Of a stretch of 15,913 nt of DNA, positions 1 through 14,347 are shown one piece after another. Both the position numbers and the translations under genes were made by a program. Within the stretch, counting starts at the first letter, position 1; every line of letters starts with the position of its first letter. The notes under the pieces were generated by a model that was not told the origin of the DNA, did not search any database, and saw only the letters and a program-made list of their open reading frames with translations. Source of the DNA: a bacterium (GTDB taxonomy: Bacteria; Actinomycetota; Acidimicrobiia; UBA5794; ZC4RG35); contig JAPPKR010000181.1 in the NCBI GenBank assembly GCA_028819835.1, forward strand, positions 1 to 15,913, written 5' to 3'.

Positions 1-794
1 TCCCGACACCAAGCAGCGTGGCTGCAGGGTCGGAACTGTTCCCCGATTACCTGGTCGCCGCTGGGGTTGATCCCCTGAAACGCAATGGCCTGCTGGCGGA
101 CCTGGAGCGCTGGTCGCGTTCCTACGCCCTCTTCACCCTGGAGAAGTTGGGTTGGAGTCGTGTCAAGGGCCAGGTCGTCGATCCCGATGAGCTGAGGCAG
201 ACCTTGGGGGTCATTCCCGAGCACCAGCGCCTGTTCCGCCGGATGTTCGAGATGCTTTCCCGCTCCGGGGTTCTGGAGGAGCGGGACGGCGCGTTCGCGG
301 TTTTGCTGGGGCCCGACGACCCGTTGCCCGCAGAGCTTCCCCCCGATCCGGAGGGGTATGCGGAGGAGATGGCCGAGCGGTATTCCCAGGGCCTGATCGA
401 GATCGGGCTGTTCAAGCGGTCGGGTGCTGCCCTGGCCGAGGTCCTGCGAGGCGGGGCGGACCCGCTGACTCTCCTGTTCAGCAGCGGTGAACCGACCGCC
501 GCCGATCTGTACCTGAAAGCCCCGGTGGCCCGCGCCGCCAACGCCTTGTTGCGAGACGCGGTCCGCGCACTCCTGGCCCGCTTGCCGGAAGGTCGCCGAC
601 TTCGAGTGATCGAAGTGGGAGCGGGCACGGGATCGGCCACTGCCTCCGTTCTACCGGAGCTTCCCGCTGGACGGTTCGATTACATGTACACCGATATCTC
701 CGCCGGTTTCTTCGCCGAAGCCGAAGCGAGGTTCGGCGACGGTGACGGGTGCATCGAGTACCGCCCGCTGGACATAGAGAAGGACCCCGTATAG
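1..794 (+). CDS. Type I polyketide synthase, partial: N-terminal part of the C-methyltransferase domain, ended by an in-frame TAG
   Basis: The frame is open from base 3 with no start codon, so this is the middle of a larger protein that begins outside the window. The segment has the helical lead-in typical of PKS C-methyltransferase domains, then the SAM-binding motif [13 protein letters not shown] at 606-644. It reaches the acidic stretch [11 protein letters not shown], where a TAG stops it. The next codons in the same frame (QGFDRHGYDLLIASNVLHAT) are the expected continuation of the same domain, so 1-794 and 795-6473 are one ancestral gene. C-MT domains transfer a methyl group from S-adenosylmethionine to the alpha carbon of the ACP-bound beta-ketoacyl chain. 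The upstream KS, AT and DH that such modules normally carry would lie left of the window; this is inferred. As read, the product would end inside the MT fold and be non-functional. What could rescue it is sequencing error, readthrough or a recent mutation. Confidence 0.85.
792..794 (+). other. In-frame amber (TAG) codon interrupting the PKS methyltransferase domain
   Basis: The codons read GTA TAG CAG GGG TTT at 789-803, in the frame of both flanking PKS segments. No base insertion or deletion is needed to join them. By memory of the family, the interrupted position usually holds a polar residue such as Glu or Gln (a form like DPxxQGF), so one substitution, for example GAG or CAG to TAG, would explain it. 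TAG also ends the PKS itself (6471-6473) and tatA (15529-15531), so global reassignment of TAG to sense is unlikely here. Confidence 0.9.
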
Positions 795-3700
795 CAGGGG
801 TTTGACCGACATGGCTATGACCTGCTGATCGCCTCCAACGTGTTGCATGCCACCCGCTTCCTGCAAGAGACCCTGGGGCACTGCAGGACTCTGATGGCGC
901 CCTCGGGCCAGTTGGTGGCCCTGGAAAACCTCCGCGGCCTGGGTTGGATGGACCTCACCTTCGGTCAACTGGACGGGTGGTGGAGATTCGCCGACCACTA
1001 CCGTCCGCACCACGCCCTGGCGACCCCCGAGGTGTGGCGACAGGCGCTGGGGGACGCGGGTTTCGAGGAAGTCGAAGTCCTGGGGGTGGACGACTCCTTC
1101 ACATTCGAGATGCTGGACAAGGGAGTGATCGTGGCCCAGGGGCCGGCGAAGGTGACCGAGCCTGCTGGGGTATGGGTGCTGGCTGGGGATCGGAGCGGCG
1201 TGGGCGATGCCTTGGCCACCGAGTTGGCGACTCGGAACCAGACGGTGGTACTGGCGAGCGGGGACGCTCAGGAGAAGACCATGACGGCCGGTGACGGACC
1301 GGCGGTGGTCAAGACCGCCCTGGACATGGAGTGCCGGGAGTCGTGGCTATCGCTGATCGAGGATCTACCCCGGGACTTGCCGCTCAACGGCGTCGTGCAC
1401 CTGGGCGCCCTGGACGGTCATGGAGATCGGGCAACCGCCGACGAGATGGCTGCGGACATCCGGGCCGCCGGAGCAGGCGCGCTGGCGCTGGTGCAGGGTT
1501 TGGCCGACTCCGACCTCATACCGGCCAAGGGAGTGTGGCTCGTCACCCGCGGTGCGCAGGTGCTGGAGAGGGAGCGGGGCGGAGAGTTGGCCGGGGCGAC
1601 TCTCTGGGGTCTTGGCAAGGTGATGGCACTGGAGACGCCGCACCTGCAGCCGAGGATGATAGACATCGATCCCGGCGTCCCCGGACCCATGGTCGACCTG
1701 GTAAACGAGTTGATGTATCCCGACCGGGAGAACCACATCGCCTACCGGCTCGGAAGTCGGAGAGCAGCTCGGCTGGTCCGCCCCGATGCGGTGGAGGGGC
1801 GACTGGCATTTCCCGAGGAGCCAGGCTGGGTCCTGGCCCCGGACCGGGGAGGGATCTTCGACCGACCACGGATCAAGACCCTTGGAGTTCGGCTCCTGGA
1901 GCCGAGAGAGGTCCGAGTAGCCGTGGAAGCCGCCGGGCTCAACTTCTGGGACGTGTTCCGGTCGCTGGGCTTCATCGAGGAGGGGGATCTGGGGAGGGAG
2001 ATGTGCGGATTCGTTGTCGACACCGGTTCGGAAGTCTCGACCGTTGCGGTTGGCGACCATGTGGTCGGACTGGGGTTCGGCGCGTTCGCGGCGGAGATGG
2101 TCACCCATGAGGAGTTAGTGGCCCCGGCCCCGGAGGGGCTCTCAGTCTCGGGGCTGGCCACCATCCCCAGCGCCTTCGTCTCGGCTGCTCTTTCTTACAA
2201 GTACTCCGGGCTGGAGGCCGGAGACCGGGTGCTGATTCACGCCGGCGCCGGGGGAGTCGGGCTGGCGGCTATACAGCTTGCACAGGCCGCGGGCGCCGAG
2301 GTGTTCGCCACCTGCAGCGCGCCGAAACGTGCATATCTGCGATCGGTGGGCGTCAAGCACATATTCGACAGCCGCCAGACCAGGTTTGGCGAGCAAATCC
2401 TGGAGGCCACCGGAGGGGAGGGTGTTGAGGTGGTGCTGAACAGCCTCACGAGCGAGGGCTTCATAGATGCCAGCCTGTCCTGTCTGGCCCAGGGTGGCCG
2501 GTTCGTCGAACTGGCCAGAAGGGACATCCTCAGCCCCGAGGAGATGGCTGAGGTGCGGCCGGATGTGTCCTATGACATCCTGGAGTTGGATGTGCTGAAG
2601 AAGACCGATCCGGCTTGGGTTGGAGAAGTGATGAGGGAGGTGATGGAGGGGATTTCGTCAGGAGAGCTCAAACCGCTGGTACACAGCAGGTGGCCCCTGG
2701 CCGAGGCGGGCGCGGCATTGGGATTCATGCGAGCAGCCCGCCACCTGGGAAAGATCGTCGTAACCGCTAGTCCGCTGGCGCAGGGCCACCTGCGGGGAGA
2801 TCGCACCTACTTGGTTACAGGGGGCCTGGGGGGAATCGGGTGCGCGGTGGCCGATTGGCTGGCGGATCGGGGCGCCGGCGCGATCGTTCTGAACGGCCGC
2901 CGGGATCCCGACGCCGCAGCGACAGAAACCATAGAAGCGCTGCGCCGACGCGGCGTCAGGGTGGAAGTCGAACTTGCGGACGTCACCGACCCAGGGGCGG
3001 TGGACGCCATGCTGGCGCGGATCGACGCCCGCTTGCCGCCGCTGGGCGGCGTTATTCACAGTGTGGGCGTGCTGTCGGACGCTGCCCTCACCAATCAGAC
3101 CTGGGGGAGCTTCGAACAGGTGCTGTGGCCCAAGATCGTGGGCGCCTGGCACTTGCACCGGGCCACTGAGGGCCGGGACCTAGACCTCTTCTGTCTCTTC
3201 TCCAGCCGAGTCGGTGTTATGGGCAATCCCGGCCAGGCCAATCATGCCGCCGCCAACGCCTTCTTGGACCAGCTTGCCGCTCATCGACGGGCGCTCGGTC
3301 TCCCCGGCCAGGCCATAGCCTGGGGCGCATGGTCGGAAATCGGGGAAGCCGCCGAACAACGGGACCGTATCGAGCGCCGCCGAGCGGCCCTAGGAGGCCG
3401 CTGGTTTACCCCGCAGCAAGGAATCCGGGCCCTCGAGAGGCTGGTGCGTCAGGACAGCACCGGGTCGGTGGTGATGTCCATGGACTGGTCGGTTTTCGAG
3501 GAGGCTGTCGAGGACCGTCCTCCCTTGCTGGAGGACCTGCTGTCTTCAGGCCCCGACGACGCGTCCGATGGCGCTGTCTCCTCGGAGGATCTGCTGACCC
3601 TGCTGAGAAGCGCGCCGACAATAGAGCCCGAAGAAGTGTTCGTGTCCTTCCTGCAGCAGGAGGTGCAAGCGGTGCTCAGGTTGCCCAAGGCGCCCTCACC

Positions 3701-6473
3701 GACGGTTGGTTTCTTCGACCTGGGAATGGACTCGCTGATGGCCGTGGAGTTGCGTAACCGCCTGAACCGCGCCTTTGCCGGTGAATACGTGGCGTCCAAC
3801 ACCGTCGTCTTCGACTACCCGGACATTGCCGCCCTGGCAGGGCATCTGGCTTCGGAACTCGGCCAACCCGGCGAGGTCCGGTCATCGCCCGAGCAACCGG
3901 TATTCGAGGAACCCCCTGCGACCGCCGTCGACGACGATGGCATTGCGGTGGTGGGTATGGCCTGCAAATTCCCCGGAGCGGACAACCTGGGGGCATTCTG
4001 GGATCTCTTGGATGCCGGCGCTGACGCCGTCACCGACGGCCGGCGGGACGCCGGGGCATGGGATGGCGTGGTGGGGGATCCCGAGGCTGCCGATGTCGCC
4101 TACCGGCGGGGGGCCTTCATAGACGGGATTGACCGGTTCGATTCCAGGTTCTTCCGGATCTCCCCGATCGAGGCGCAGTTGATGGATCCCCAGCAGCGGA
4201 TACTGCTTGAGACGAGTTGGCTGGCCCTGGAAGACGCGGGGTTCGGTCCCGACAGCCTGAGGGGTAGCCGCACCGGGGTGTATGCGGGGGTTGGCAGCGC
4301 CGAATACCGGGACTTGATCGAGGCCGCCAACAGGGCGGACAGCTACCTGGGCACGACCGGGAGCGTCGCGGTCGGCCGAGTGGCTTTCGCACTGGGCCTT
4401 GAAGGACCCGCGATGCCGGTTGACCTGGCCTGCGCGTCGTCGTTGGCTGCGGTCCATCAGGCCGTGGTGGGCTTGCAGCGCGGCGAGGTGGATCTGGCTC
4501 TGGCGGGAGGAGTGAATGTGGTGCTTTCTCCTTCGGTGTCCAGATTCATGATGGACATCGGTATGTTGTCGCCGACCGGGCATTGCAGTCCCTTTGACGC
4601 TTCCGCCGATGGATATGTACGAGGCGAAGGCTGCGGCATGGTGGTGTTGAAGCGATTGAGGGAGGCCGAGGCCGACGGCGACCGGATATGGGCCGTCATA
4701 CGAGGGTCTGCGGTCAACCAGAACGGGGCCAGCGCCGGTCTGACCGTGCCGAACGGCCCGGCCCAGGAACGGGTGATGAGGGAAGCCTTGCTGCAAGCCG
4801 GTGTGGCGGGGTCCCGGGTCGATTACCTGGAAGCGCACGCCACCGGCTCGCAGTTGGGCGATCCCATCGAGTTGAATGCAGCCGCGGCGGTATACGGCGA
4901 CGGGCGGTCGGAGGGACGTCCGCTGCTGGTCGGATCGGTCAAGTCCAACATCGGGCACATTGAATGGGCGGCGGGAATCGCGGCCTTTATCAAGACCGTC
5001 CTCGCCATGAACGAGGGCAGGATCCCCAGCCACCTGCACTTCCGGGATCCCAATCCGCATGTCGACTGGGATCGGATCCCGGTGCGAGTGACGTCTGAGG
5101 GAACACAGTGGCCTTCCGACCCCGGCGGACTTCCCCTGGCGGGGATCAATGCCTTCGGGCTCTCCGGGGCCAACGCCCATGTTCTGGTCGAGGGCTACCG
5201 CTCGGTGGGGAATGGCGCGATGGCCGGCAGCGGAGCCGACCCGGTGGCTGGCGGCGCACGGGCGGTGCCGTTGACGCTTCCCCCCGGGGTTGACGGCTCT
5301 TCGGCAACAGAACCCCCGGCGCGGGGCGTTCGCCTCTTGCCCCTGTCCGGGAAGTCGGCGGGGGCACTCCGGGATCTGGCGGATCGTTACCTCTCCTGGC
5401 TCGATGGCGAGGACGGCGCGCCCTCCGATGCGTACCTGGCCGATCTGGCCTGGACTGCGGGAGTGGGCCGGAGCCATTTCCCTCACCGCGCCGGGATTCT
5501 GTTCCGTAATGTCCTCGAACTGCGCCGGGAACTACGGACGGTGTCGGAGACCTATGAGTTCCCGGATTGGGAAACGCCTGAGAGAGCGACAAGAGTGGCT
5601 TTCCTCTACCCGGGTGCTGAGGGCTTTTCCCGCGCAGTGGGGGAGGCGGTTTATCGCAGCGAGCCGGTGGCTCGGGCGGTGTTGGACCGCTGCGACGACG
5701 TGATGCGCCAGCAGCGGGGGGATTCACTTCTTGAGGCGATGTTCCGTCGTTCCGGGGTCGGGGATCCGGAGGATCCGGCAACTGCTTACCCGGCGGTTTA
5801 TGCGTTGGGATGCGCTCTGACCGCCCAGTGGGCGAGCGTGGGCATTCGTCCCAACGTCGTGCTGGGGTGGGGTCCGGGTGCGATAGCGGCGGCGCAGGCG
5901 GCCGGGGTGTTCGGCTTGGAGGAAGGTCTGGGACTGGCGACCGCCCTGGGCACCCTGCAGAACTCATCATCGGACCATGACCATCGGGCTGTCCTGGAGG
6001 CTGCCCTGGACGGCCTTGCGCTGCAAACGCCGTCCGTATCCCTGCTGAACAATGTCTCCGGGCGGGTGGTGGAGTCTTCGGAGGACTTGGATCTCGAATA
6101 CTGGTTGTCCCAGGGCGGGGGTTCTCCCGGTGTAAGGAACTGGGGAACCCTGGCCCGCCTCGGGACGGATGCAATAGTTGTAACAGGTCCCGAGTCGTCG
6201 CTCGGAGAGGGGCTCCGTGGCCGCCGGCCCGATTCTCAAGAGACTCCCGTCGTACTACCCACCCCGGTGAGTCCATCCGCCAACGGGGAGGCGCCGGATT
6301 CGGGACCCGGATTTGTCGAAACGGTGGCAGGCGCTTACCAGGCAGGGCTGGACATTTCCTTCAACGGTTTGTTCGCAGGTGAGGTCCGGCGTCGAGTGGC
6401 TCTACCGGGCTATCCCTTCCAACGGCGGCGACACTGGATACGGCCTCCAGGCGATAGTGCCAAGGACCGCTAG
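795..6473 (+). CDS. Type I polyketide synthase, C-terminal part: MT(end)-structural KR-ER-KR-ACP-KS-degenerate AT
   Basis: The frame is continuous with the upstream PKS segment. The first start-type codon after the TAG is GTG 840, which lies inside the MT fold and is not a credible start. Counting from GTG 840, the order is: end of MT (to about 95); structural ketoreductase (about 110-320); enoylreductase with NADPH motif HAGAGGVGLAA from 467 (about 325-640); ketoreductase with TGGLGGIG from 660 and a GQANHAAAN active-site segment, where His802 sits at the usual Tyr position; ACP with GMDSL, Ser965; ketosynthase with Cys1198 (DLACASS), His1333 and His1373 intact. Last comes an AT-like remnant (about 1586-1788) with GWGPG in place of GHSxG, then the usual post-AT linker LPGYPFQRRRHW. 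The MT-ER-KR set predicts fully reduced, methyl-branched acyl chains, known for lipid-making PKSs. There is no terminal ACP or thioesterase; a discrete ACP gene follows. The lack of any other disruption over 5.6 kb suggests recent or ongoing selection. Confidence 0.88.
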   Translation, partial: QGFDRHGYDLLIASNVLHATRFLQETLGHCRTLMAPSGQLVALENLRGLGWMDLTFGQLDGWWRFADHYRPHHALATPEVWRQALGDAGFEEVEVLGVDDSFTFEMLDKGVIVAQGPAKVTEPAGVWVLAGDRSGVGDALATELATRNQTVVLASGDAQEKTMTAGDGPAVVKTALDMECRESWLSLIEDLPRDLPLNGVVHLGALDGHGDRATADEMAADIRAAGAGALALVQGLADSDLIPAKGVWLVTRGAQVLERERGGELAGATLWGLGKVMALETPHLQPRMIDIDPGVPGPMVDLVNELMYPDRENHIAYRLGSRRAARLVRPDAVEGRLAFPEEPGWVLAPDRGGIFDRPRIKTLGVRLLEPREVRVAVEAAGLNFWDVFRSLGFIEEGDLGREMCGFVVDTGSEVSTVAVGDHVVGLGFGAFAAEMVTHEELVAPAPEGLSVSGLATIPSAFVSAALSYKYSGLEAGDRVLIHAGAGGVGLAAIQLAQAAGAEVFATCSAPKRAYLRSVGVKHIFDSRQTRFGEQILEATGGEGVEVVLNSLTSEGFIDASLSCLAQGGRFVELARRDILSPEEMAEVRPDVSYDILELDVLKKTDPAWVGEVMREVMEGISSGELKPLVHSRWPLAEAGAALGFMRAARHLGKIVVTASPLAQGHLRGDRTYLVTGGLGGIGCAVADWLADRGAGAIVLNGRRDPDAAATETIEALRRRGVRVEVELADVTDPGAVDAMLARIDARLPPLGGVIHSVGVLSDAALTNQTWGSFEQVLWPKIVGAWHLHRATEGRDLDLFCLFSSRVGVMGNPGQANHAAANAFLDQLAAHRRALGLPGQAIAWGAWSEIGEAAEQRDRIERRRAALGGRWFTPQQGIRALERLVRQDSTGSVVMSMDWSVFEEAVEDRPPLLEDLLSSGPDDASDGAVSSEDLLTLLRSAPTIEPEEVFVSFLQQEVQAVLRLPKAPSPTVGFFDLGMDSLMAVELRNRLNRAFAGEYVASNTVVFDYPDIAALAGHLASELGQPGEVRSSPEQPVFEEPPATAVDDDGIAVVGMACKFPGADNLGAFWDLLDAGADAVTDGRRDAGAWDGVVGDPEAADVAYRRGAFIDGIDRFDSRFFRISPIEAQLMDPQQRILLETSWLALEDAGFGPDSLRGSRTGVYAGVGSAEYRDLIEAANRADSYLGTTGSVAVGRVAFALGLEGPAMPVDLACASSLAAVHQAVVGLQRGEVDLALAGGVNVVLSPSVSRFMMDIGMLSPTGHCSPFDASADGYVRGEGCGMVVLKRLREAEADGDRIWAVIRGSAVNQNGASAGLTVPNGPAQERVMREALLQAGVAGSRVDYLEAHATGSQLGDPIELNAAAAVYGDGRSEGRPLLVGSVKSNIGHIEWAAGIAAFIKTVLAMNEGRIPSHLHFRDPNPHVDWDRIPVRVTSEGTQWPSDPGGLPLAGINAFGLSGANAHVLVEGYRSVGNGAMAGSGADPVAGGARAVPLTLPPGVDGSSATEPPARGVRLLPLSGKSAGALRDLADRYLSWLDGEDGAPSDAYLADLAWTAGVGRSHFPHRAGILFRNVLELRRELRTVSETYEFPDWETPERATRVAFLYPGAEGFSRAVGEAVYRSEPVARAVLDRCDDVMRQQRGDSLLEAMFRRSGVGDPEDPATAYPAVYALGCALTAQWASVGIRPNVVLGWGPGAIAAAQAAGVFGLEEGLGLATALGTLQNSSSDHDHRAVLEAALDGLALQTPSVSLLNNVSGRVVESSEDLDLEYWLSQGGGSPGVRNWGTLARLGTDAIVVTGPESSLGEGLRGRRPDSQETPVVLPTPVSPSANGEAPDSGPGFVETVAGAYQAGLDISFNGLFAGEVRRRVALPGYPFQRRRHWIRPPGDSAKDR

Positions 6474-6641: not shown

Positions 6642-6887
6642 ATGTCATCCACCGAAGAGAGGATCAGAGCACTGGTCGACGAGAATCTGGAGATCGAAGG
6701 ACGCCCACCCGGTCGCCCGCTGGATCTCGATTCAAGCCTCCGGGATTCCGGGGTGTCGTCGTTGGATTTTGTGGCGTTCGCCAAGTTGGTGGCCCAGGAG
6801 TTCGGCGTCGAAGTGAGCATGGAGGAATGCGCGAGCATCAATTCGGTTGGGGAACTCATAACGTTCCTGGACTCCAAAGCCGCCTGA
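6642..6887 (+). CDS. Discrete acyl carrier protein (PP-binding domain protein)
   Basis: An 81-residue stand-alone carrier protein of normal ACP length. The attachment motif is DSGVSSLDF; Ser40 is the expected 4'-phosphopantetheine site, with Ser in place of the usual Asp just before it. The N-terminal helix (EERIRALVDENLEI), the acidic second helix and the C-terminal helix (SVGELITFLDSKAA) fit the four-helix fold. It lies between a PKS that ends in KS-AT without its own carrier and a phosphopantetheinyl transferase gene. I infer that it serves the PKS in trans, either as partner of the terminal KS or as acceptor of the finished chain. It could instead serve another acyl pathway, but the gene order favours the PKS. 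The start is well supported by an AGGAG site. Confidence 0.88.
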   Translation: MSSTEERIRALVDENLEIEGRPPGRPLDLDSSLRDSGVSSLDFVAFAKLVAQEFGVEVSMEECASINSVGELITFLDSKAA

Positions 6888-6940: not shown

Positions 6941-7687
6941 ATGACCGCAAATCCGCAAGGTGGTCCAAGGGCAGGAGACGGCCTCCGATGGTGGAGGTCC
7001 TTCCGGTCGTCCGGTCCGGTTGAGGTTTTTCGCGTTGACCTGACCCCGCACTCGGGGCGTGAAGCCGCGGCTTGGAGCCTGCTTGATGCGGCTGAGCGGC
7101 GGCGTTGCCGCAGGTTTCTTTACCCGGCTCCGCGCCGCCAGTTCGTCCTGAGCCGGGCCGCGCTCCGGGCCGTGCTTTGTGTGGGTCTGGGTTGCGACAA
7201 TGGAGAACTCGCATTCGAGTTTTCCAGGTACGGCAAGCCGATTCCCCTGGTCGGCGGCGATCGCGTGACCATGCATTGCAACATCAGCCACAGCGGGAGC
7301 CATGGGTTGGTGGCGCTCTCCCATCGGAGGGTGGGTGTCGATGTGGAAGAGCGAAGACCTCGGAAGAACCTGGAAGAGCTGGTGGAAACGGTCTTTGGCC
7401 CCGAAGAACAGGCGCTCCTTACCAGACTGCAGGGCAGGAGGTGGCTGGATACGTTTCTCCTTTTTTGGACTGCCAAGGAAGCCTTGGCCAAAGCCTGGGG
7501 CATGGGCCTTCGGACGGACTTTTCGACCTTTCAGGTGCCTCCCGAGATGCTTCGAGGGGAGCGGACCGGCCTGTTCCGCTGCCCACGAATAACCAACGCC
7601 ACATGGCGGCTGGAAGACATCGGGTGTGACGAGTTGGCTGCGGCGGTGGCCTATGAGGAGGATCCGGGGCCCGCAGGGGAGTTCTGA
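6941..7687 (+). CDS. 4'-phosphopantetheinyl transferase, Sfp superfamily
   Basis: A 248-residue protein, the size of Sfp-type transferases, which move 4'-phosphopantetheine from coenzyme A to the conserved serine of carrier proteins. Visible motifs are NISHSGSHGLVALS (from 114, the substrate and CoA-binding strand), GVDVEE (132-137; Asp134 and Glu136 are the expected Mg2+ ligands) and FWTAKEALAKAWG (175-187), the WxxKE signature with Glu180. It begins 53 bases after the ACP stop on the same strand, so it most likely activates that ACP and the ACP domain of the PKS. No clear Shine-Dalgarno site precedes ATG 6941. The family is sure; its partners are inferred from position. Confidence 0.93.
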   Translation: MTANPQGGPRAGDGLRWWRSFRSSGPVEVFRVDLTPHSGREAAAWSLLDAAERRRCRRFLYPAPRRQFVLSRAALRAVLCVGLGCDNGELAFEFSRYGKPIPLVGGDRVTMHCNISHSGSHGLVALSHRRVGVDVEERRPRKNLEELVETVFGPEEQALLTRLQGRRWLDTFLLFWTAKEALAKAWGMGLRTDFSTFQVPPEMLRGERTGLFRCPRITNATWRLEDIGCDELAAAVAYEEDPGPAGEF

Positions 7688-7813: not shown

Positions 7814-9547
7814 TTGTCAGCCCAAGTGAACGATGGCATCCGGTACGAACCGGACGAGCGTTGCTCTCCGTGGATGGCGGGTGTGGTGGGGATGCAGGGC
7901 GTGATGACGGTGCTGGCCATCATCGTGTTGATCACGGCCATCACGGTCCTGGCTGTCGGCCAGGACCCGGACACACTGGAATGGTCGGTCTTCGCAGCTC
8001 TGATCGTCTGCGGATTGGTTTGCGCTTTGCAGACCACCCGGTGGGGACGCCTGGGAGGGGGGCACATCCTGATCACGGGCGTCACGCCCAACTACATACC
8101 GGTCTCGGTCCTCGCGCTGGAGGTCGGCGGGCCGGCCACACTGGCTGGCCTGGTGGTTCTCTCCGGCCTCTTCTACCTGATAATCGCCAAGTGGCTGCCC
8201 CTGCTGCGCAAGGTCATCACGCCGGTTGTCTCCGGTACGGTGCTGATGTTGCTCGCCACCATGATCCTCCCCTTCCCGATAGATCGCCTCTCCGAAGTGC
8301 CGGAGGACGCAACCAGGGCCAGCGGCCTGGCGGTGGCGGCGGTGACGGTGGCGGCCGTAACGATCCTGTTCCTACGCGCCAAGGGGACCTGGAGACTGTG
8401 GTCTCTGCTGCTCGGGATTGCGGCCGGGTGCGCGGCAGCCGTGCCGTTCGGGCTTTATGAGTATGAAAAGGTGCTCTCCGCGCCTTGGTTCGGCGTCCCC
8501 GACGGCGGGTTGCCCGGAGTGGACCTCACTCTGAGCCCTGGAGCATGGGCGTTGCTGCCGATGTTTCTCATGGTCACCCTCGTGCAGGCCATCAAGAGCA
8601 TTGGCGACAACATGGCGGCCCAACAGGTGTCTTACCGGAGGCGCAGGTCGATCGACTTCCGCGCCATCCAGGGAGCGATTTACGCCAACGGGTTGGGAAT
8701 ACTGATGTCGGGCGTGGCAGGGATCCCTCCCACCGCCGCCTATTCCTCATCCACCGTCTCGCTCGTCCACGTCACCGGGGTGGCGGCTCGGCGGGTCGGG
8801 TACGCGATGGGGGCGATCCTGGTGGGACTGGCTCTGTTGCCCAAGGCGACGGCCGTTCTGGTCGCCATCCCCAATCCGGTCATGGGGGCGGTCGTGCTCT
8901 TCGTGACCGGGACCCTCTTCATGGAAGGTCTGCGCACCGTCTCCCAGGCCGGTCTCAGTCTGCAGAACGTCGTGATGGTGGGACTGTCGTATGCGGTGGG
9001 GGTCGGCATGCTGCAACACAATGTCCTGGAGGGAGTCTTGGAGAGTCCCTGGGACCTGCTATTGGGGGACGGGCTCACCCTGGGCGCGGTCACCGCAGTG
9101 GGACTGTCACTGTTCCTGAAGCTGAGCCGTGGCCGGCCCAAACGGCTCCGGACGGCTCTGGACGGATCGTCTTTCTCCTTGATCGACGGGTTTCTTCAGG
9201 ACCTGGCCTGCCAAAGGGGTTGGGACGCTCCTTCAACCCGGCGGTTGTGTTCGGCGGGGGAAGAAGCCTTAGCCAGCCTGTTGGCGCCCTCCAACCGGTA
9301 CCAGGACGGCAAGACGCCGCGGCTGATCCTCTTGGCCTACCCCGAAGGGGGAGCCATTGAACTGGAGTTCCTCACGGTTGTGGAGGAAGAGAACCTCCAA
9401 GACCGGTTGGCATATCTCGATGACGAGCTTCAGACATGGGACGAGAGGGAGATCTCCTTTCGGCTCCTGCGCCACTATGCCTCCGATTTCCGGCACCAGA
9501 AGTATCACGGGATGGACATCATCACCGTGAGAGTGGAGGGTTCCTGA
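7814..9547 (+). CDS. NCS2-like (xanthine/uracil permease family) membrane transporter with a C-terminal cytoplasmic domain
   Basis: 577 residues from a TTG start. Residues about 20-435 are a string of hydrophobic helices with family landmarks: a VTPNY segment, LPLLRKVITPVVSGTV, SIGDNMAA, a helix start GIPPTAAYSSST, VTGVAARRVGYAMG and AIPNPVMGAVVLFVTG. NCS2 proteins are cation-coupled importers of nucleobases or ascorbate. Two usual substrate-site features are altered: the Glu before xIGD is Lys261, and the QNxGxxxxTG signature reads STVSLVHVTG (313-322). The substrate is therefore uncertain. Residues about 438-577 are soluble, start with a basic stretch (RGRPKRLR) and include AGEEALASLL and ISFRLLRHYASDF. 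They resemble an anti-sigma (RsbW-like) ATPase fold without clear ATP-binding glycines; this is inference. The gap before it (126 bases) shows no clear promoter. It is convergent with the next gene. Confidence 0.8.
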   Translation: MSAQVNDGIRYEPDERCSPWMAGVVGMQGVMTVLAIIVLITAITVLAVGQDPDTLEWSVFAALIVCGLVCALQTTRWGRLGGGHILITGVTPNYIPVSVLALEVGGPATLAGLVVLSGLFYLIIAKWLPLLRKVITPVVSGTVLMLLATMILPFPIDRLSEVPEDATRASGLAVAAVTVAAVTILFLRAKGTWRLWSLLLGIAAGCAAAVPFGLYEYEKVLSAPWFGVPDGGLPGVDLTLSPGAWALLPMFLMVTLVQAIKSIGDNMAAQQVSYRRRRSIDFRAIQGAIYANGLGILMSGVAGIPPTAAYSSSTVSLVHVTGVAARRVGYAMGAILVGLALLPKATAVLVAIPNPVMGAVVLFVTGTLFMEGLRTVSQAGLSLQNVVMVGLSYAVGVGMLQHNVLEGVLESPWDLLLGDGLTLGAVTAVGLSLFLKLSRGRPKRLRTALDGSSFSLIDGFLQDLACQRGWDAPSTRRLCSAGEEALASLLAPSNRYQDGKTPRLILLAYPEGGAIELEFLTVVEEENLQDRLAYLDDELQTWDEREISFRLLRHYASDFRHQKYHGMDIITVRVEGS

Positions 9548-9588: not shown

Positions 9589-10497
9589 TCAGCCTTCCAG
9601 GATGTCGTCGATGAACTCCCGCAGCGCCGCGGCGCATTCCTCAGGTTCTTCAAGTTGAAGGAAGTGGGTGGCTTCGGGTAGGAAGTCGTAGTCGACGGTC
9701 AGGATGTCGCTCAGATCGAGAGTGGGGAGGTAGGAGAAGGGAAGCGTGGGATCTGCGCCCATGACTTTGGTGGGCGACGCCAGGGTGTCGAAGTCAACCA
9801 TCACCGAGAAGACGCCTGCGTACTCGACGATCCGGGCCTCGTATTCCTTGGGACATCTCAATTCGTAGCCCTGCTGACCCTCGCTTTCTCGCAGGGTCGC
9901 CCTGGCCATCAGGTCGAGCACGCCAGGGACCACGCGAGAGAACAACGGGACGAATCCGAGGAGGAAGGAAAAGTCCTCTCGGGTGGAAAACCGCTCCGCG
10001 CGCCGCCGGGTGAGCGTAGCGGTGCGGGTGGCGGCCTCCTCCATCTGCTGGTAGCTTCTGCCCGGCTTGCAGAGGGGGGGATCGAACAGGAAGCGCCCCG
10101 CAAATCCGCTTCCCCTGGTGGGCGACAGCAGCGAGATCAGGGCCGAGATCGAATGGAATACGCCAATCTTCGGCTTGTCGCCGAAGTACTGGTCGATGGC
10201 CTCCATTGTGCGATCGTGGTCATCGACGAAGGTCGGCATGTTGTGCGTTTCGAGGGGGCTGACCTCGTTCCAACCATGGTCCCTGAGGTCGTAGACGATC
10301 AGGTCGTAATCGTCGAGCAATAGAGACCAGAACGGGTAGTAGAGATCTATGGCCAATCCATTCCCGTGGGTGAGAACCAACCTGGGTCCATCCGGGTTCC
10401 CATGACGGCGCAACGCAATCTTGGTCCCGTCTCCCATCAACGCCTGGCGTGTGGCGGAGGGTTCGGGAATCTCCCACGTGGCTTCCTGAGCAGTCAA
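9589..10497 (-). CDS. Alpha/beta hydrolase-fold protein
   Basis: 302 residues from a TTG start. That is the only upstream choice, since an in-frame stop lies two codons further up; ATG 10437 (Met21) is an alternative but would cut into the first strand. Fold landmarks are the oxyanion-hole motif THGNG (43-47), YDLRDHG (69-75), the nucleophile elbow GVFHSISAL (Ser116, with Ser rather than Gly as the final small residue), Asp249 (MGADP) and His278 (EATHF). These make a plausible Ser-Asp-His triad; a helical lid lies at about 140-210. The substrate cannot be read from the sequence. It starts 8 bases after the sdhB stop on the same strand, so it is probably co-transcribed with sdhCAB. It has no signal peptide, so it is likely cytoplasmic. 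Confidence 0.85.
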   Translation of the reverse strand: MTAQEATWEIPEPSATRQALMGDGTKIALRRHGNPDGPRLVLTHGNGLAIDLYYPFWSLLLDDYDLIVYDLRDHGWNEVSPLETHNMPTFVDDHDRTMEAIDQYFGDKPKIGVFHSISALISLLSPTRGSGFAGRFLFDPPLCKPGRSYQQMEEAATRTATLTRRRAERFSTREDFSFLLGFVPLFSRVVPGVLDLMARATLRESEGQQGYELRCPKEYEARIVEYAGVFSVMVDFDTLASPTKVMGADPTLPFSYLPTLDLSDILTVDYDFLPEATHFLQLEEPEECAAALREFIDDILEG

Positions 10498-10505
10498 GGT
10501 CTAAG

Positions 10506-11258
10506 TCAGGCCCTTCCGCGGTTCGTGAGTTTGGCCTTCACGTAATCGCGGTTCATCATGGCGATGAAGTCGATAGAGATCTGTTTGGGGCAGGCCGCTT
10601 CGCACTCTCCGTGGTTGGTGCAGGATCCGAAGAACCGCTCCATGGTGTCCACCATGCGCTCGGTCCGGACGTACCGTTCCGCACTTCCCTGGGGAAGCAG
10701 GTTGAGGTGAGAGGCTTTAGCGGCGGTGAACAGTTGCGCGGCGGAGTTGGGACAGGCTGCCACACATGCGCCGCACCCGATGCACGCCGCGGCATCGAAA
10801 GCGGTCTCGGCCGTCTCCTTGGGAACCGGGGTCAGGTTGGCTTCCGGGGCGGAACCGGTGGCGACCGTGATGAAACCGCCCGCTTCGATGATCCGGTCGA
10901 AAGCGGACCTGTCGACCACCAGGTCGCGAATGACTTCGAATGCGGTTGCCCGCCACGGTTCGACGGTGATGGTGTCGCCGTCCCGGAAGCTCCTCATATG
11001 GAGTTGGCAGGTTGCCGTGGCCGCCTGCGGGCCGTGAGCCCGACCGTTGATCATCACCCCGCAGGCGCCGCAAATCCCCTCCCTGCAGTCCGAATCGAAG
11101 GCGATGGGCTCCAGTCCCTCCAGTGTGAGTCGTTCGTTCAATACGTCCAGCATTTCCAGGAAGGACATGTCCGTCGACACGTCGGAGACCTGGTAGGTCT
11201 CGAACCCGCCTTCGTCAGACGGGCCCGCCTGGCGCCATGCCCTCAGCGTGATGTTCAT
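10506..11258 (-). CDS. sdhB: Succinate dehydrogenase/fumarate reductase iron-sulfur subunit
   Basis: 250 residues, normal for SdhB. It carries electrons from the flavoprotein to the quinone site through three clusters. The [2Fe-2S] ligands are Cys58, Cys63, Cys66 and Cys84 ([10 protein letters not shown], then ATCQLH). The second domain has [12 protein letters not shown] (Cys159, 162, 165, 169) and [13 protein letters not shown] (Cys213, 219, 223), supplying the [4Fe-4S] and [3Fe-4S] clusters. The ATG overlaps the stop of the flavoprotein gene (ATGA), which suggests translational coupling. The clusters and gene order fit succinate:menaquinone oxidoreductases; direction in the cell (succinate oxidation or fumarate reduction) cannot be decided from sequence. 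Confidence 0.95.
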
Positions 11259-13180
11259 TTGTAGCTCCGGGTGGTTTGCTGCACGTTTTCAAACGCCAGA
11301 GGCTCTTCCTGCAACGAGGGCCGGGTGGGGTCGCCTGTCCAGAACCACGCCGACACCGTCGTGAACTGTTCATCGTCGCGGACCGCTTCGCCCTGAGGAG
11401 TCTGGTGCTCCTCCCGGAAATGGCCGCCGCACGACTCCTCCCTGTGCCGGGCATCCACGCACATGGCCATCGCCAACTCGAAGAAGTCCTCCAGACGGGC
11501 GGCCTTCTCCAGCGTCTGGTTGAGGCTTTCCCCGTCACCGGGGACCCGGGCTTCATTCTGGAACTCCTCATAGAGATCCGGCAGGTAGGCCAACGCCCGG
11601 CCCAGGCCCTCCTCGCTTCGGGACATGCCGCACTCGTCCCATACCACCCTGCCCAGTTGACGGTGAAAGTCGTCGACCGTGCGGCTGCCATTCATCGAAA
11701 GCAGTCCGGCGATCCGCTCCCGGAGTTCTGCCTCGGTGCGGGCGAATGCCTCGTCCGAGGTGGGCACAGGGGCTTCATTCAGGAATCCCGCCACATAGTC
11801 GCCGATGGTGTAGGGGAGCACGAAGTATCCGTCGGCCAGTCCCTGCATGAGGGCGGAAGCCCCCAACCGGTTGGCGCCGTGGTCCGAGAAGTTGGCTTCA
11901 CCCAGAGCGTACAGTCCGGGGATGGTGGTCATCAGGTTGTAGTCCACCCACAACCCGCCCATGGTGTAGTGGGGAGCGGGGTAGATCCGCATCGGGTCCT
12001 GGTAGGGATCCTCATCGGTGATCCGGTTGTACATCTCCATCAGGTTGTCGTAGCGAGCGACGATGGCTTCGCGGCCGAGCCGGGCGATCGCATCCTGAAA
12101 GTCCAGGTAAACGCCGTTCTTCCTTTCTCCCACCCCATGGCCTGCGTCGACCATGCGCTTGGCTGCCCGGGAAGCCACGTCTCTGGGAACCAGGTTCCCG
12201 AACGCCGGATAGGTCCTCTCCAGGTAGTAGTCCCGATCACTCTCGGGGATCTGTCGGGGCGGCCGATCGTCATCGGGGGAGGCGGGCACCCACACCCGTC
12301 CGTCGTTGCGCAGCGACTCCGACATCAGGGTCAACTTGGACTGGAAGTCCTCGGCGGCCGGTATGCAGGTGGGATGGATCTGGGTGAAACAAGGATTGGC
12401 GAAGGCTGCTCCCCGGCGATGGGCTCGCCATATGGCCGTGGCGTTGCAGGTCATTGCATTGGTGGACAGGTAATAGACATTGGAGTAACCGCCGGTGCAC
12501 AGGACCACCGCATGGGCCGAGTGGGAGGTGATCTCGCCGGTGAGGAGGTCCCTCACCACGACTCCGACGGCCTGCCCCTCCTTCAGGACCACGTCCATGA
12601 ACTCGGTGCGCACCCACAGTCTCACCGTGCCCAGTCCCACCTGTCGCGCCAAGGCCTGGTAGGCCCCCAGCAGCAGTTGCTGGCCGGTCTGGCCCCGGGA
12701 GTAGAAGGTACGCGCCACCTGGGCGCCGCCGAAGGAGCGGTTGTCCAGAAGCCCGCCGTACTCCCGGGCGAACGGAACACCCTGAGCCGTCGCTTGGTCG
12801 ATGATGTTGAGCGAGAGTTGCGCCAACCGGTAGACATTGGCCTCGCGGGAGCGGAAGTCTCCGCCCTTGATGGTGTCGTAGAAGAGCCGGTCCACCGAAT
12901 CTCCATCGTTTCGATAGTTCTTGGCGGCGTTGATGCCGCCCTGGGCGGCGATGGAGTGGGCCCGGCGGGGGGTGTCATGAAAGGTGAAGGCGTCGACCTG
13001 ATAGCCGAGTTCGGCCAATGTGGCGGCGGCCGAGGCGCCCGCCAGGCCGGTTCCGATCACGATGATCTTGAAATGCCGCTTGTTGGCGGGGTTGACCAGC
13101 TTGAGGGAGAAGCGGTGATTGTCCCACGCGTCGGCGAGGGGCCCTGGTGGGGTCTTCGCTTCCAACCGGACCGTGCTCAT
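11255..13180 (-). CDS. sdhA: Succinate dehydrogenase/fumarate reductase flavoprotein subunit
   Basis: 641 residues from ATG 13180. The frame stays open for 84 more codons upstream, but those lie over sdhC; the ATGA overlap with sdhC and the conserved N-terminus fix the start. Visible features are the FAD-binding [10 protein letters not shown] (43-52), the covalent-FAD histidine at position 75 in [14 protein letters not shown], the substrate-site segment TQIHPTCIP, and the capping-domain to FAD-domain sequence [15 protein letters not shown] and [16 protein letters not shown]. Together with SdhB it oxidises succinate to fumarate on the inner face of the membrane. The form ([14 protein letters not shown], about 640 residues) is that of enzymes paired with a single cytochrome b subunit rather than the E. 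coli type with SdhC and SdhD. Confidence 0.95.
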
Positions 13181-13851
13181 CCCACCCACCCGGTCCAGAC
13201 CGCGATCGGTATGCTGACGTTGCCGATCACGATCACCGCGGAGAAAGCCTGCGCGAACCAGCGTCGCCAGCGGTTGTAGGAGGGATGGGCCAGTCCCAGG
13301 CTTTGGAAGAGCGACCACGCGCCGTGGTAGATGTGGATGCCCAACAGCAGATTTGCAACTATGTACAAGACTGCCACTCCTCCCCGAGAGAGGGAGGCCA
13401 CAAGGTTGGCCTCCACCGCCCCGGCAGTCCATCCCTCAGGCGCCACGGGAGTCACCCCCCAGGTCAGATCGGCGAGATGCCACAACAGGAAAGCCGCCAC
13501 GATCACGCCGCTCCATCGCATGGTGCGGGAGGCGTAGCTCGCCACCGCCATGTCGCGGGGACCCTGATAGGCGGCATTGGCGCGTCGATTCAGCAAGGTC
13601 AGGCTGGCCGCGGCATGGATGTGCAGCAGAAAGGCGATCACCAACCCGGTCCGCATCAGCCAGAGGGTGACGGTCTTGGGAAGGAGCGGATAAAGCAGTT
13701 CCCTCAGGAAGTGGGCGTAGGAATCCAGCTGCCCTTCACCCAGATAGACCTTGAGGTTGCCGATCATGTGGGCCAGCACGAACCCCAGGAGGGCGATGCC
13801 GGTGACGGCCATGACCCACTTTTTCCCGACAGCCGAGCGGTAGAACTCCAT
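13177..13851 (-). CDS. sdhC: Succinate dehydrogenase cytochrome b subunit (b558 family, five membrane helices)
   Basis: 224 residues from ATG 13851, beginning [18 protein letters not shown], which matches where family members start. The frame extends to a TTG at 13896 (15 more residues, Arg/Pro/Ser-rich), a possible alternative; neither has a strong ribosome site. Five hydrophobic helices are visible at about 12-32, 64-86, 113-131, 157-178 and 199-220. His28, His79, His125 and His173 or His176 lie in helices, as expected for two b hemes. It anchors SdhA and SdhB and passes electrons to quinone. No sdhD gene is present, in keeping with the one-anchor, two-heme type. It is the first gene of the operon and overlaps sdhA by four bases. 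Confidence 0.9.
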
Positions 13852-13926
13852 CGGCCAGGGACGGCGTCGAGAGGTTGAAACGGAGGCGGGCGTCAAGGGA
13901 CTCGTTCAGGCATCGACTGCCCAAAG

Positions 13927-13932
13927 ATTGTA
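13927..13932 (-). promoter_or_regulatory. Possible -10 element of the sdhCAB operon
   Basis: Read on the minus strand, TACAAT lies about 75 bases before ATG 13851, within the divergent intergenic region. No good -35 is seen at the right distance. A start point near 13920 would put the TTG at 13896 about 24 bases into the message and the ATG about 70 bases in. An AAAAAGGAGG stretch at 13959-13968 on this strand has no in-frame start after it. Confidence 0.3.
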
Positions 13933-13971
13933 AACGTTCCGGACACAGTGCGCCGCAGCCTCCTTTTTCAT

Positions 13972-14000
13972 TTGACAATGTCCCGCTCCCTGTCTATAGT
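13972..14000 (+). promoter_or_regulatory. Near-consensus vegetative promoter for whiB
   Basis: TTGACA at 13972-13977 and TATAGT at 13995-14000 are separated by exactly 17 bases. This is an almost perfect sigma-70/SigA-type promoter and unusually strong-looking for a GC-rich genome. Transcription should start near 14007, leaving a leader of about 65 bases before ATG 14072. Confidence 0.82.
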
Positions 14001-14008
14001 CGCATGAT

Positions 14009-14027
14009 TGTAATTACATGGATGTAA
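14009..14027 (+). promoter_or_regulatory. Two overlapping palindromes at the predicted whiB transcription start (candidate operator)
   Basis: TGTAATTACA (14009-14018) is a perfect 10-base palindrome. TTACATGGATGTAA (14014-14027) has perfect 6-base arms around GG and shares TTACA with the first. The result is three alternating TGTAA/TTACA half-sites starting about two bases after the predicted start point. A dimeric regulator bound here would block the promoter or control escape from it. The regulator is not identifiable from the sequence. Confidence 0.55.
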
Positions 14028-14071
14028 CGACCGGGCGGCGGGCGGCCTGGTTTTGGAGATAAGGACGGAAG

Positions 14072-14347
14072 ATGCGACGGAGCTTGATAGATGCGATGGC
14101 CAACGATCAATTGGGCTGGCAGAACTATGCCAACTGCCTGGGAGCGGATACCGATTTGTTCTTTCCCGAGCGGGGGTCCTCCACCCGCAAGGCCAAGGCG
14201 ATCTGTGGGGAGTGCGAGGTGAAGATCGAATGCCTGGACTTCGCGCTGGACAACGGTGAGCGTTTTGGAATCTGGGGAGGGTTGTCGGAGCGGGAGCGTC
14301 GCCGGGTCCGGCACGAGCGGTCGAGGAGGACGGCGGTAGCCTCCTGA
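14072..14347 (+). CDS. whiB: WhiB-family iron-sulfur transcriptional regulator (WhiB2/WhmD-like)
   Basis: 91 residues with the four cluster-binding cysteines of the family at 22, 45, 48 and 54 (C...CxxCx5C). The segment FFPERGSSTRKAK comes before the CxxC, and ERFGIWGGLSERERR follows, containing the G[VI]WGG turn and the basic C-terminal tail that contacts DNA or sigma factor. These features are closest, from memory, to WhiB2/WhmD, which controls cell division and sporulation septation in model actinobacteria. WhiB proteins bind an O2- and NO-sensitive [4Fe-4S] cluster and act with the primary sigma factor. ATG 14072 follows a purine-rich GGAGATAAGGA stretch. A strong promoter and a palindromic site lie upstream. 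The family is almost exclusive to Actinobacteria and their phages, which is the main evidence for the host group. Confidence 0.95.
   Translation: MRRSLIDAMANDQLGWQNYANCLGADTDLFFPERGSSTRKAKAICGECEVKIECLDFALDNGERFGIWGGLSERERRRVRHERSRRTAVAS

Follow-up and report, generated by a model that had tools for sequence, protein, structure and literature searches.

The Sup polyketide synthase (PKS), which is widespread in symbionts of high-microbial-abundance sponges, is described in the available parts of its literature as a small, monomodular enzyme, and it has been proposed to make mid-chain-branched fatty acids (PMC3908369; PMC4245539). A permease, SupE, is recorded from a sponge-symbiont sup clone (PMC3908369, Table 1), and in one sponge more than 99% of those ketosynthase (KS) amplicon sequences that matched a KS came from Sup PKS genes (PMC4245539). 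The accessible text of these two papers yielded no account of chain termination and exit from the enzyme. A second type I PKS of sponge symbionts, Swf (swfA), consists of one complete module, KS-AT-DH-ER-KR-ACP, and its clusters carry reductase/sulphotransferase genes, with radical SAM genes in 2 of 3 clusters (PMC3908369, in part). The ketosynthases of trans-AT PKSs provide a further point of comparison, since their flanking subdomain ends in the motif LPTYPFx5W (PMC11260071, in part).

The stretch of DNA analysed here (15,913 nucleotides, hereafter the window) carries a type I PKS reading frame (3..6473, + strand) whose 5' end is lost at the window edge. In the nearest relative genome (G001) the protein is intact, 3378 aa in length, with the order KS1-AT1-DH-MT-ER-KR-ACP1-KS2-shortened AT. 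Likened by description only, the window cluster may resemble Sup in that it encodes a single complete module, which includes a C-methyltransferase, and also a permease; it differs in its terminal KS with a gutted AT, its discrete ACP and its hydrolase, which are absent from the descriptions in the available parts of PMC3908369 and PMC4245539. A single complete module is likewise shared with Swf, although neither a methyltransferase (MT) nor a second KS is given for Swf in the accessible text of PMC3908369. The hosts of the window family are metagenome-assembled genomes (MAGs) with isolate names resembling those of sponge surveys, and prefixes such as RHO, COS, and IRC appear to denote sponges, a reading helped by the available part of PMC8163846. 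Two NCBIfam models, for mycobacterial Pks2-type lipid PKS and PKS_plus_SDR (NF041183 and NF045894), also match the window KS-AT region, but with scores of 825.5 against a cut-off of 2400 and 1058 against a cut-off of 1740, both lowered by the 5' truncation of the window PKS. The products of Pks2 are methyl-branched lipids. The Sup-type lipid PKS, named as a lead in the earlier note, is judged a good one. We give an even chance to the reading that this locus encodes a methyl-branching lipid PKS of a sponge symbiont, probably of the Sup type, and that its terminal module is split and AT-less, in which case the chain would pass from KS2 to the discrete ACP and be released by the hydrolase. Should the cluster indeed be related to Sup, its conserved terminal KS would form, with the discrete ACP and the hydrolase, a concrete and testable chain-end machine. 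No description of the KS2-gutted-AT tail was found in the literature covered, in part, on how Sup enzymes are built and on ATs that are inactive, truncated or reduced to remnants, a scope outside which the founding Sup papers and most subscription papers lie.

The internal carrier domain ACP1 (3648..3848, + strand; Pfam PP-binding, FDLGMDSLM at 3714-3740) is followed by the terminal ketosynthase KS2 (3933..5198, + strand), in which the family signature EAH..GS replaces EAHGTGT. The earlier note had called this KS active-looking, and its Cys-His-His triad is indeed located at 4431-4433 (DLACASS), 4836-4838 (EAHATGS), and 4956-4958 (KSNIGH). Next come a KS-AT linker domain (5331..5590, + strand; CurL-like/RhiE-like linker, Pfam PF22621 and PF22336), present in every tail type examined, a shortened AT core (5601..6290, + strand) and a post-AT linker (6291..6437, + strand), which is kept, as had been claimed, and ends in LPGYPFQRRRHW (6402-6437), fitting the pattern LP.YPFx5W. 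In the AT core, FLYPGAEGF (5601-5627) and GWGPG (within 5859-5882) were both found, as reported previously, in the places of GQGxQ and GHSxG, so that the nucleophilic Ser is absent; a stretch of about 75 residues bearing the catalytic His is missing (approximately 5957 to 6042), with a gap at the His column, and Pfam Acyl_transf_1 covers only profile positions 2-123 of 319. An intact Ser-His dyad within the remnant, set beforehand as refuting, was not found. The terminal AT hence lacks both catalytic residues and, judged from alignment, is dead. The reading frame stops at 6473 with no fused carrier after the AT, again in agreement with the earlier note, and 1-23 aa follow the LP.YPFx5W motif in 80/80 loci listed.

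The domain search and structure prediction that had been suggested for the remnant recovered, in a predicted model and its fold matches, the fold of the large AT subdomain. The CurL KS-AT didomain (PDB 4mz0) is both its top Foldseek match (E 1.3e-13) and its best PDB sequence match (E 2.3e-23, in two pieces), though the window lacks any equivalent of CurL residues 711-793. CurL is also the best single-domain match of KS2 (431 bits); the top PDB row for KS2, 7zma, which we take to be a trans-AT bimodule, leads through two domains (292 and 313 bits).

The condition of this AT was examined across relatives drawn from two protein searches (the best 120 of 2519 and the best 120 of 3417 matches). 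Among the 210 matches listed, 197 are two-KS homologues, the others being P0162 (multimodular), nine other multimodular proteins, and the two-KS proteins P0220, P0262, and P0288 with a short second match. A homologue with a complete terminal AT, also named beforehand as refuting, was found by alignment in 0 of the 197 listed; as a control, the last AT of P0162 (4140 aa, three KS by motif) was scored intact by the same alignment (Ser, His, spacing 126). The terminal tails of these 197 comprise 168 with a shortened AT, 5 that are shorter, and 24 without any AT core, the last count not being a frequency because the second search targeted AT-less tails. In the 111 listed terminal ATs compared by column with internal ATs, the elbow residue is Gly in 101, Asp in 6, and Arg, Asn, Glu, and Ser in one each; in the 168 shortened ATs among the matches listed it is Gly in 151, Asp in 9, Ser in 4, Asn in 2, and Arg and Glu in one each. 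The loss of the segment with the catalytic His holds throughout: its column is a gap in 111/111 listed terminal ATs versus His in 110/110 internal ATs, and a gap in 168/168 of the larger listed pool, whereas AT1 keeps Ser and His in 110/110 checked among the matches listed. The shortening is equally evident in the distance from the elbow to the SN(V)TG strand, with a median of 61 residues (45-65) in terminal ATs versus 136 (132-138) in AT1. Four listed proteins (P0215, P0233, P0295, and P0301; 4/197) keep GHSLGE and lack the His stretch. GxSxGE also occurs in 5 of 80 loci listed (L022, L023, L036, L055, and L064), and inspection of the L023 and L064 tail sequences found no catalytic His. An HS motif in L077, considered as a hidden AT His, was discarded because the L077 tail sequence does not contain it.

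A local deletion in the window is ruled out by these results, since the shortening is common to the listed family. Shortened ATs are present in MAG loci of at least 12 phylum-level groups (taken from record titles), these loci being the matches listed from a search with the shortened AT and hence biased toward it. Between the window and G001, dN/dS is 0.26 for the AT core, which indicates that the core is under purifying selection; together with the distribution over at least 12 groups, this points to more than chance. The KS-AT linker gives 0.37 from few changes (dN 0.03, dS 0.07), which is not low, and its upkeep is therefore argued from its presence rather than from the ratio. The shortened AT might be a docking platform through which KS2 recruits either a discrete AT or the discrete ACP, and this would explain why the large subdomain is kept in most listed members; we regard this as improbable, since the core is absent in 24/197 listed members and its loss recurrent, its dN of 0.10 exceeds that of MT, ER, KR, ACP1, and KS2 (0 to 0.04), and no trans-AT gene lies among the window proteins scanned.

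The remnant had earlier been regarded as an old structural relic rather than random decay. The change is indeed old and common to the listed family, but the tails without a core indicate that AT loss is still in progress and that the remnant is not just an old relic. All tail types share the KS-AT linker and the post-AT linker, and the KS tree requires at least 6 label changes, indicating that complete excision of the AT has recurred. The core-less tails consist of the two linkers only, which is the layout of trans-AT ketosynthases (PMC11260071, in part); like these, KS2 itself lacks a working AT and retains the flanking linker and post-AT motif. The window differs in that the large AT subdomain is still present, the AT-less state is confined to the last unit, and no discrete AT gene occurs among the window proteins scanned; moreover, the sister of KS2 is the family's own KS1, whose cis AT is intact. 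KS1 and KS2 form sister clades (100/100 each) in a KS tree comprising sequences other than trans-AT KS, and this tree shows, as far as its sequences allow, that KS2 descended from the family's own KS lineage. AT1 and the terminal AT are poorly separated in an AT tree, an outcome to which copying from one to the other has at least contributed, and descent is therefore argued from the KS tree. The multimodular proteins P0102, P0103, P0104, and P0106, whose last AT is also shortened, were considered as carriers of the same cassette and rejected, as the KS tree sets them apart; their shortened ATs look independent in origin. By eye, three of these four have a DH-like tail.

Graded and repeated AT loss with both linkers kept amounts to a natural experiment on which parts of the KS-AT didomain are needed by the KS, and the series bears on the origins of trans-AT enzymes as well as on engineering that uses the LPTYPFx5W boundary. 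We put forward, tentatively and at somewhat less than an even chance, that the extant members of one family display how a cis-AT KS becomes AT-less, through a duplicated KS-AT, loss of the nucleophile and small subdomain, further erosion, and repeated complete excision of the core down to KS-linker-LPxYPFx5W. The driving force would be that the last step of a lipid pathway found in at least 12 bacterial phylum-level groups passed to a discrete ACP and a hydrolase dedicated to it.

A discrete ACP of 81 aa (6642..6887, + strand; Pfam), with its pantetheine Ser in GVSSLD (conserved Ser40), lies downstream of the PKS and is proposed as the acceptor carrier for KS2; generic ACP models match it below cut-off. 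The earlier note had asked whether a KS with a separate ACP occurs elsewhere, and of 80 loci listed, 62 have an ACP match in the 9 kb that follow the terminal AT, while none was found there in the other 18. A 4'-phosphopantetheinyl transferase (6941..7687, + strand; Pfam ACPS), proposed to prime the ACPs, is linked in 43/80 and an NCS2 permease of the xanthine/uracil type (7814..9547, + strand) in 35/80 loci listed. An alpha/beta-hydrolase (9589..10497, - strand) is near the terminal AT in 66/80 loci listed; its Ser116, Asp249, and His278 are each conserved in at least 95% of 63 sequences and invariant in 47. In one phylum sample of 201 genomes, the 20 with the PKS at E <= 1e-30 are the same as those with the hydrolase at E <= 1e-40. 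In the window's class, represented by 198 genomes, all 9 PKS-positive genomes fall within the 10 hydrolase-positive and all 8 ACP-positive within the 9 PKS-positive; in both samples the PKS probe matches AT1 too, and G179 was matched through AT1 only. On the basis of linkage and triad the hydrolase is proposed as the release enzyme, its fold matches (MpaH, Lpx1, and a curacin thioesterase among them) being generic for alpha/beta-hydrolases and not fixing the substrate. This tightly linked gene was missing from the earlier note.

The suggestion that KS2 and the dead AT form a chain-transfer or release device is plausible. In our preferred reading, the terminal AT, as the listed homologues show, has been disabled and is on its way out with both linkers retained, probably because the last step uses a separate carrier and then a dedicated release enzyme. 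The finished chain would move from the adjoining ACP1 to KS2 and on to the discrete ACP, most likely through one decarboxylative condensation with malonyl supplied in trans by AT1 or a host malonyl transferase, after which the hydrolase would free the product. No malonyl transferase or discrete AT is among the window proteins scanned by Pfam, the upstream side lying outside the window; the remaining window ORFs were searched for a discrete AT by eye only. A starter acyl chain might conversely run from the discrete ACP through KS2 into the module, as an iterative lipid PKS requires a starter that a discrete FAS-like ACP could carry. We hold this loading role to be very unlikely, as the usual entry is KS1 at the N-terminus and, in modular PKSs, a downstream KS accepts chains from the preceding ACP in the same polypeptide.

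Extension by KS2, though favoured, meets objections. Because KS2 has no reductive domains after it, a single round of extension would end in a beta-keto thioester, a poor fit to a plain fatty acid, and a finished saturated branched acid requires no extra extension. KS2 may thus merely move the finished chain, unextended, from ACP1 to the discrete ACP, which with the hydrolase would release it or pass it to a lipid acceptor; repeated AT loss agrees with this, as transfer needs no AT. One catalytic His is lost in 3 of 111 listed KS2 (P0143, P0180, and P0211), so condensation may be dispensable in those members. The Cys and both His are, however, complete in 108/111 listed, and non-elongating KS (KS0) of trans-AT PKSs usually lack the HGTGT His, which is present in the window KS2 and in 110/111 listed, so that KS2 does not qualify as KS0. 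Transfer without extension is given a roughly one-in-four standing, and KS2, from triad conservation and a dN/dS of 0.07 between the window and G001, looks active.

An in-frame TAG lies in the methyltransferase region of the window PKS (792..794, + strand), where G001 has GAG; it too was absent from the earlier note. It would suit a PKS decaying locally into a pseudogene, which we consider extremely improbable, as the gene is open in G001 and KS2, which lies 3' of the stop, shares 99% identity with the G001 KS2 at the same low dN/dS. The TAG may have arisen through an error in assembly or may be a variant within the population.

The 5' edge of the window cuts into a type I polyketide synthase (PKS), which continues through MT, ER, KR and ACP domains to a terminal ketosynthase (KS2) and a shortened acyltransferase (AT2), its frame ending at 6473. 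The nearest relative, found in genome G001, is uncut (3378 aa), with the order KS1-AT1-DH-MT-ER-KR-ACP1-KS2-shortened AT (assigned by eye and from matches) and with the motifs GQGSQ, GHSVGE and RAFHS in its internal acyltransferase, AT1. The two proteins are 92% identical over KS2 and the AT, 99% over KS2 alone and 83% over the remnant region. An in-frame TAG at 792-794, in the MT region of the window PKS, is GAG at the same place in G001 and represents an assembly error, a population variant or a broken copy. The window KR (3231-3257, GQANHAAAN) has His at the position where the catalytic Tyr is expected, and this His recurs in all 189 motif-bearing proteins from a sample of 200 proteins of 3050-3600 aa (motif unmatched in 11). 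Two family members, P0148 (3091 aa) and P0153 (3151 aa), are without zinc-dehydrogenase Pfam domains in the match listing, so that the ER is probably absent from them.

The terminal AT is, judged by its aligned active-site positions, dead in the window and in its relatives alike. A search with KS2 and the remnant as query scored 2519 proteins, and the best 120 of these included 110 two-KS proteins of 3050-3600 aa, giving, with the window, 111 terminal and 110 internal ATs. Ser and His are aligned in 110/110 internal ATs from these matches; the nucleophile column of the 111 terminal ATs holds Gly (101), Asp (6), Arg, Asn and Glu (one each) and a single Ser, in P0215, and their catalytic-His column is a gap in every case (111/111). 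The median spacing from the elbow to SNVTG is 61 in terminal ATs versus 136 in internal ATs, and CurL residues 711-793 are skipped when the window remnant is aligned to CurL; we interpret what is absent as the His loop together with the ferredoxin-like small subdomain. Read from these alignments, AT2 is without the residues on which the known transfer mechanism depends. P0215 has regained GHSLGE by a copying event: AT1 sequence has overwritten the opening part of its terminal AT (99% identical between GQG and Ser), and the resemblance to AT1 falls off at the deletion.

KS1 (21 rows) and KS2 (22 rows) form sister clades in a KS tree, each with 100/100 support. Three multimodular proteins (P0103, P0104 and P0106), in which a DH-like tail was recognized by eye behind a shortened last AT, stand apart from KS2 in this tree. 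Cys and both His are intact in 108 of 111 KS2 domains (from the best 120 of 2519 matches), and at the position of EAHGTGT, present in KS1 of 109/110 proteins, most KS2 read EAH..GS. KS2 retains, at the level of aligned residues, those of a working KS. Between the window and G001, dN/dS (NG86) is 0.07 for KS2, 0 for ACP1, 0.13 for MT, 0.12 for ER and 0.11 for KR, and 0.26 for the remnant AT, 0.23 for the post-AT linker and 0.49 for the interdomain linker; the KS-AT linker value of 0.37 reflects few changes (dN 0.03, dS 0.07). This pattern indicates that KS2 is strongly kept and that the remnant AT is held, though loosely.

The AT core is absent altogether from two relatives of the window's class, L087 (read out in full) and L090 (from the match pattern). 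AT-less tails of this kind were the target of a third protein search, which scored 3417 matches; its best 120 were pooled with the earlier best 120 of 2519 to give 210 proteins, 198 with two full KS matches, and exclusion of the multimodular P0162 left 197 for comparison. Among these, the tail from the KS end to the YPFQRRRHW motif falls into three length classes: 175-197 aa (24 proteins), 330-345 aa (5) and 368-438 aa (168). Since P0162, whose last AT is intact, has a tail of 437, intactness is not readable from length, and all tails were therefore placed in one alignment with AT1. There, a gap occupies the His column in 197/197 of the tails listed, and both Ser and His are scored in P0162 and in 40/40 AT1 rows of the same alignment. 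The elbow residue of the 168 shortened ATs is Gly in 151, Asp in 9, Ser in 4, Asn in 2, and Arg and Glu in 1 each. Mapped on a 60-row KS2 tree, absence of the AT core requires 9 changes, at least 6 of them forced by well-supported branches; some may be explained by regain through recombination, as P0239, with a shortened AT, is nested within an AT-less group. Of the 24 AT-less proteins, 5 retain the opening strand of the AT (KVAFAYTGQ or variants of it) and the other 19 do not, which fits separate excisions.

A strict LP.YPFx5W-like pattern ends 168 of the 197 tails, and the remaining 29 are near variants, mostly with IP or VP replacing LP. A flanking subdomain ending in LPTYPFx5W is borne by trans-AT KS domains, according to PMC11260071. 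We propose that the terminal unit may work like a trans-AT module, a likeness drawn from its layout. PMC4245539 and PMC3908369 describe the sponge symbiont ubiquitous (Sup) PKSs as small, monomodular and carried by sponge symbionts, with mid-chain-branched fatty acids as their proposed products; SupE is named as a permease in one of the two. The window PKS is probably Sup-type, as its methyltransferase, the accompanying permease and probably the host type fit this published description.

The window genes near the terminal AT were searched by tblastn (E <= 1e-3) in 80 listed loci from metagenome-assembled genomes, yielding the alpha/beta-hydrolase (9589-10497, - strand) in 66, the discrete ACP (6642-6887, +) in 62, the PPTase (6941-7687, +) in 43 and the permease (7814-9547, +) in 35; hydrolase and ACP were thus unmatched around the terminal AT in 14/80 and 18/80. 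Restricted to the 69 loci that extend 2.5 kb or more downstream, the search gives 58, 58, 41 and 33, respectively. Whole-genome searches, covering 13 of the 14 hydrolase-less loci (L041 left out) and the genome of L031, located the hydrolase in 13 of 14 genomes, the L011 genome having none on this search. Within the window's class (198 genomes), screening at E <= 1e-40 (hydrolase), 1e-30 (PKS) and 1e-12 (ACP) found the hydrolase in 10, the PKS in 9, all within those 10, and the ACP in 8, all within those 9; the PKS probe also catches AT1, the sole match in G179. Hydrolase and PKS were found in the same 20 of 201 genomes from the phylum of G002, and the hypergeometric value for their co-occurrence, 6e-28, ignores kinship and overstates the case. 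Partner order and strand vary, ACP and hydrolase preceding the PKS in L087. The discrete ACP and the hydrolase travel with the PKS. The hydrolase triad (Ser116, Asp249, His278) is kept in at least 95% of 63 sequences. In G001, another member of this hydrolase family (C30:45833-46726; 67% identity to the window copy) lies upstream of the PKS.

No carrier domain follows KS2/AT2 on the same polypeptide in 80/80 loci, with 1-23 aa past the YPFx5W-type motif. We suggest that the chain assembled on ACP1 would be taken up by KS2 and handed on to the discrete ACP, from which the hydrolase would free it. Passage through KS2 probably includes one extension, a reading favoured by the kept condensation residues; its weakness is the keto group that would be left. 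Plain transfer to the discrete ACP is judged about half as likely. The discrete ACP has Ser, rather than the usual Asp, preceding its pantetheine Ser (GVSSLD), a position occupied by Ser or Pro in the commonest relatives; this Ser may be connected with the PPTase that the cluster itself encodes. The permease extends 174 C-terminal residues past its Pfam match (24-403), with NCBIfam models ending at 429-437, and this tail had no family match in Pfam and NCBIfam scans. Within 10506-14347, inspection by eye picked out a WhiB-like gene (+ strand), which points to an actinobacterium, and a set of succinate dehydrogenase-like genes (- strand).
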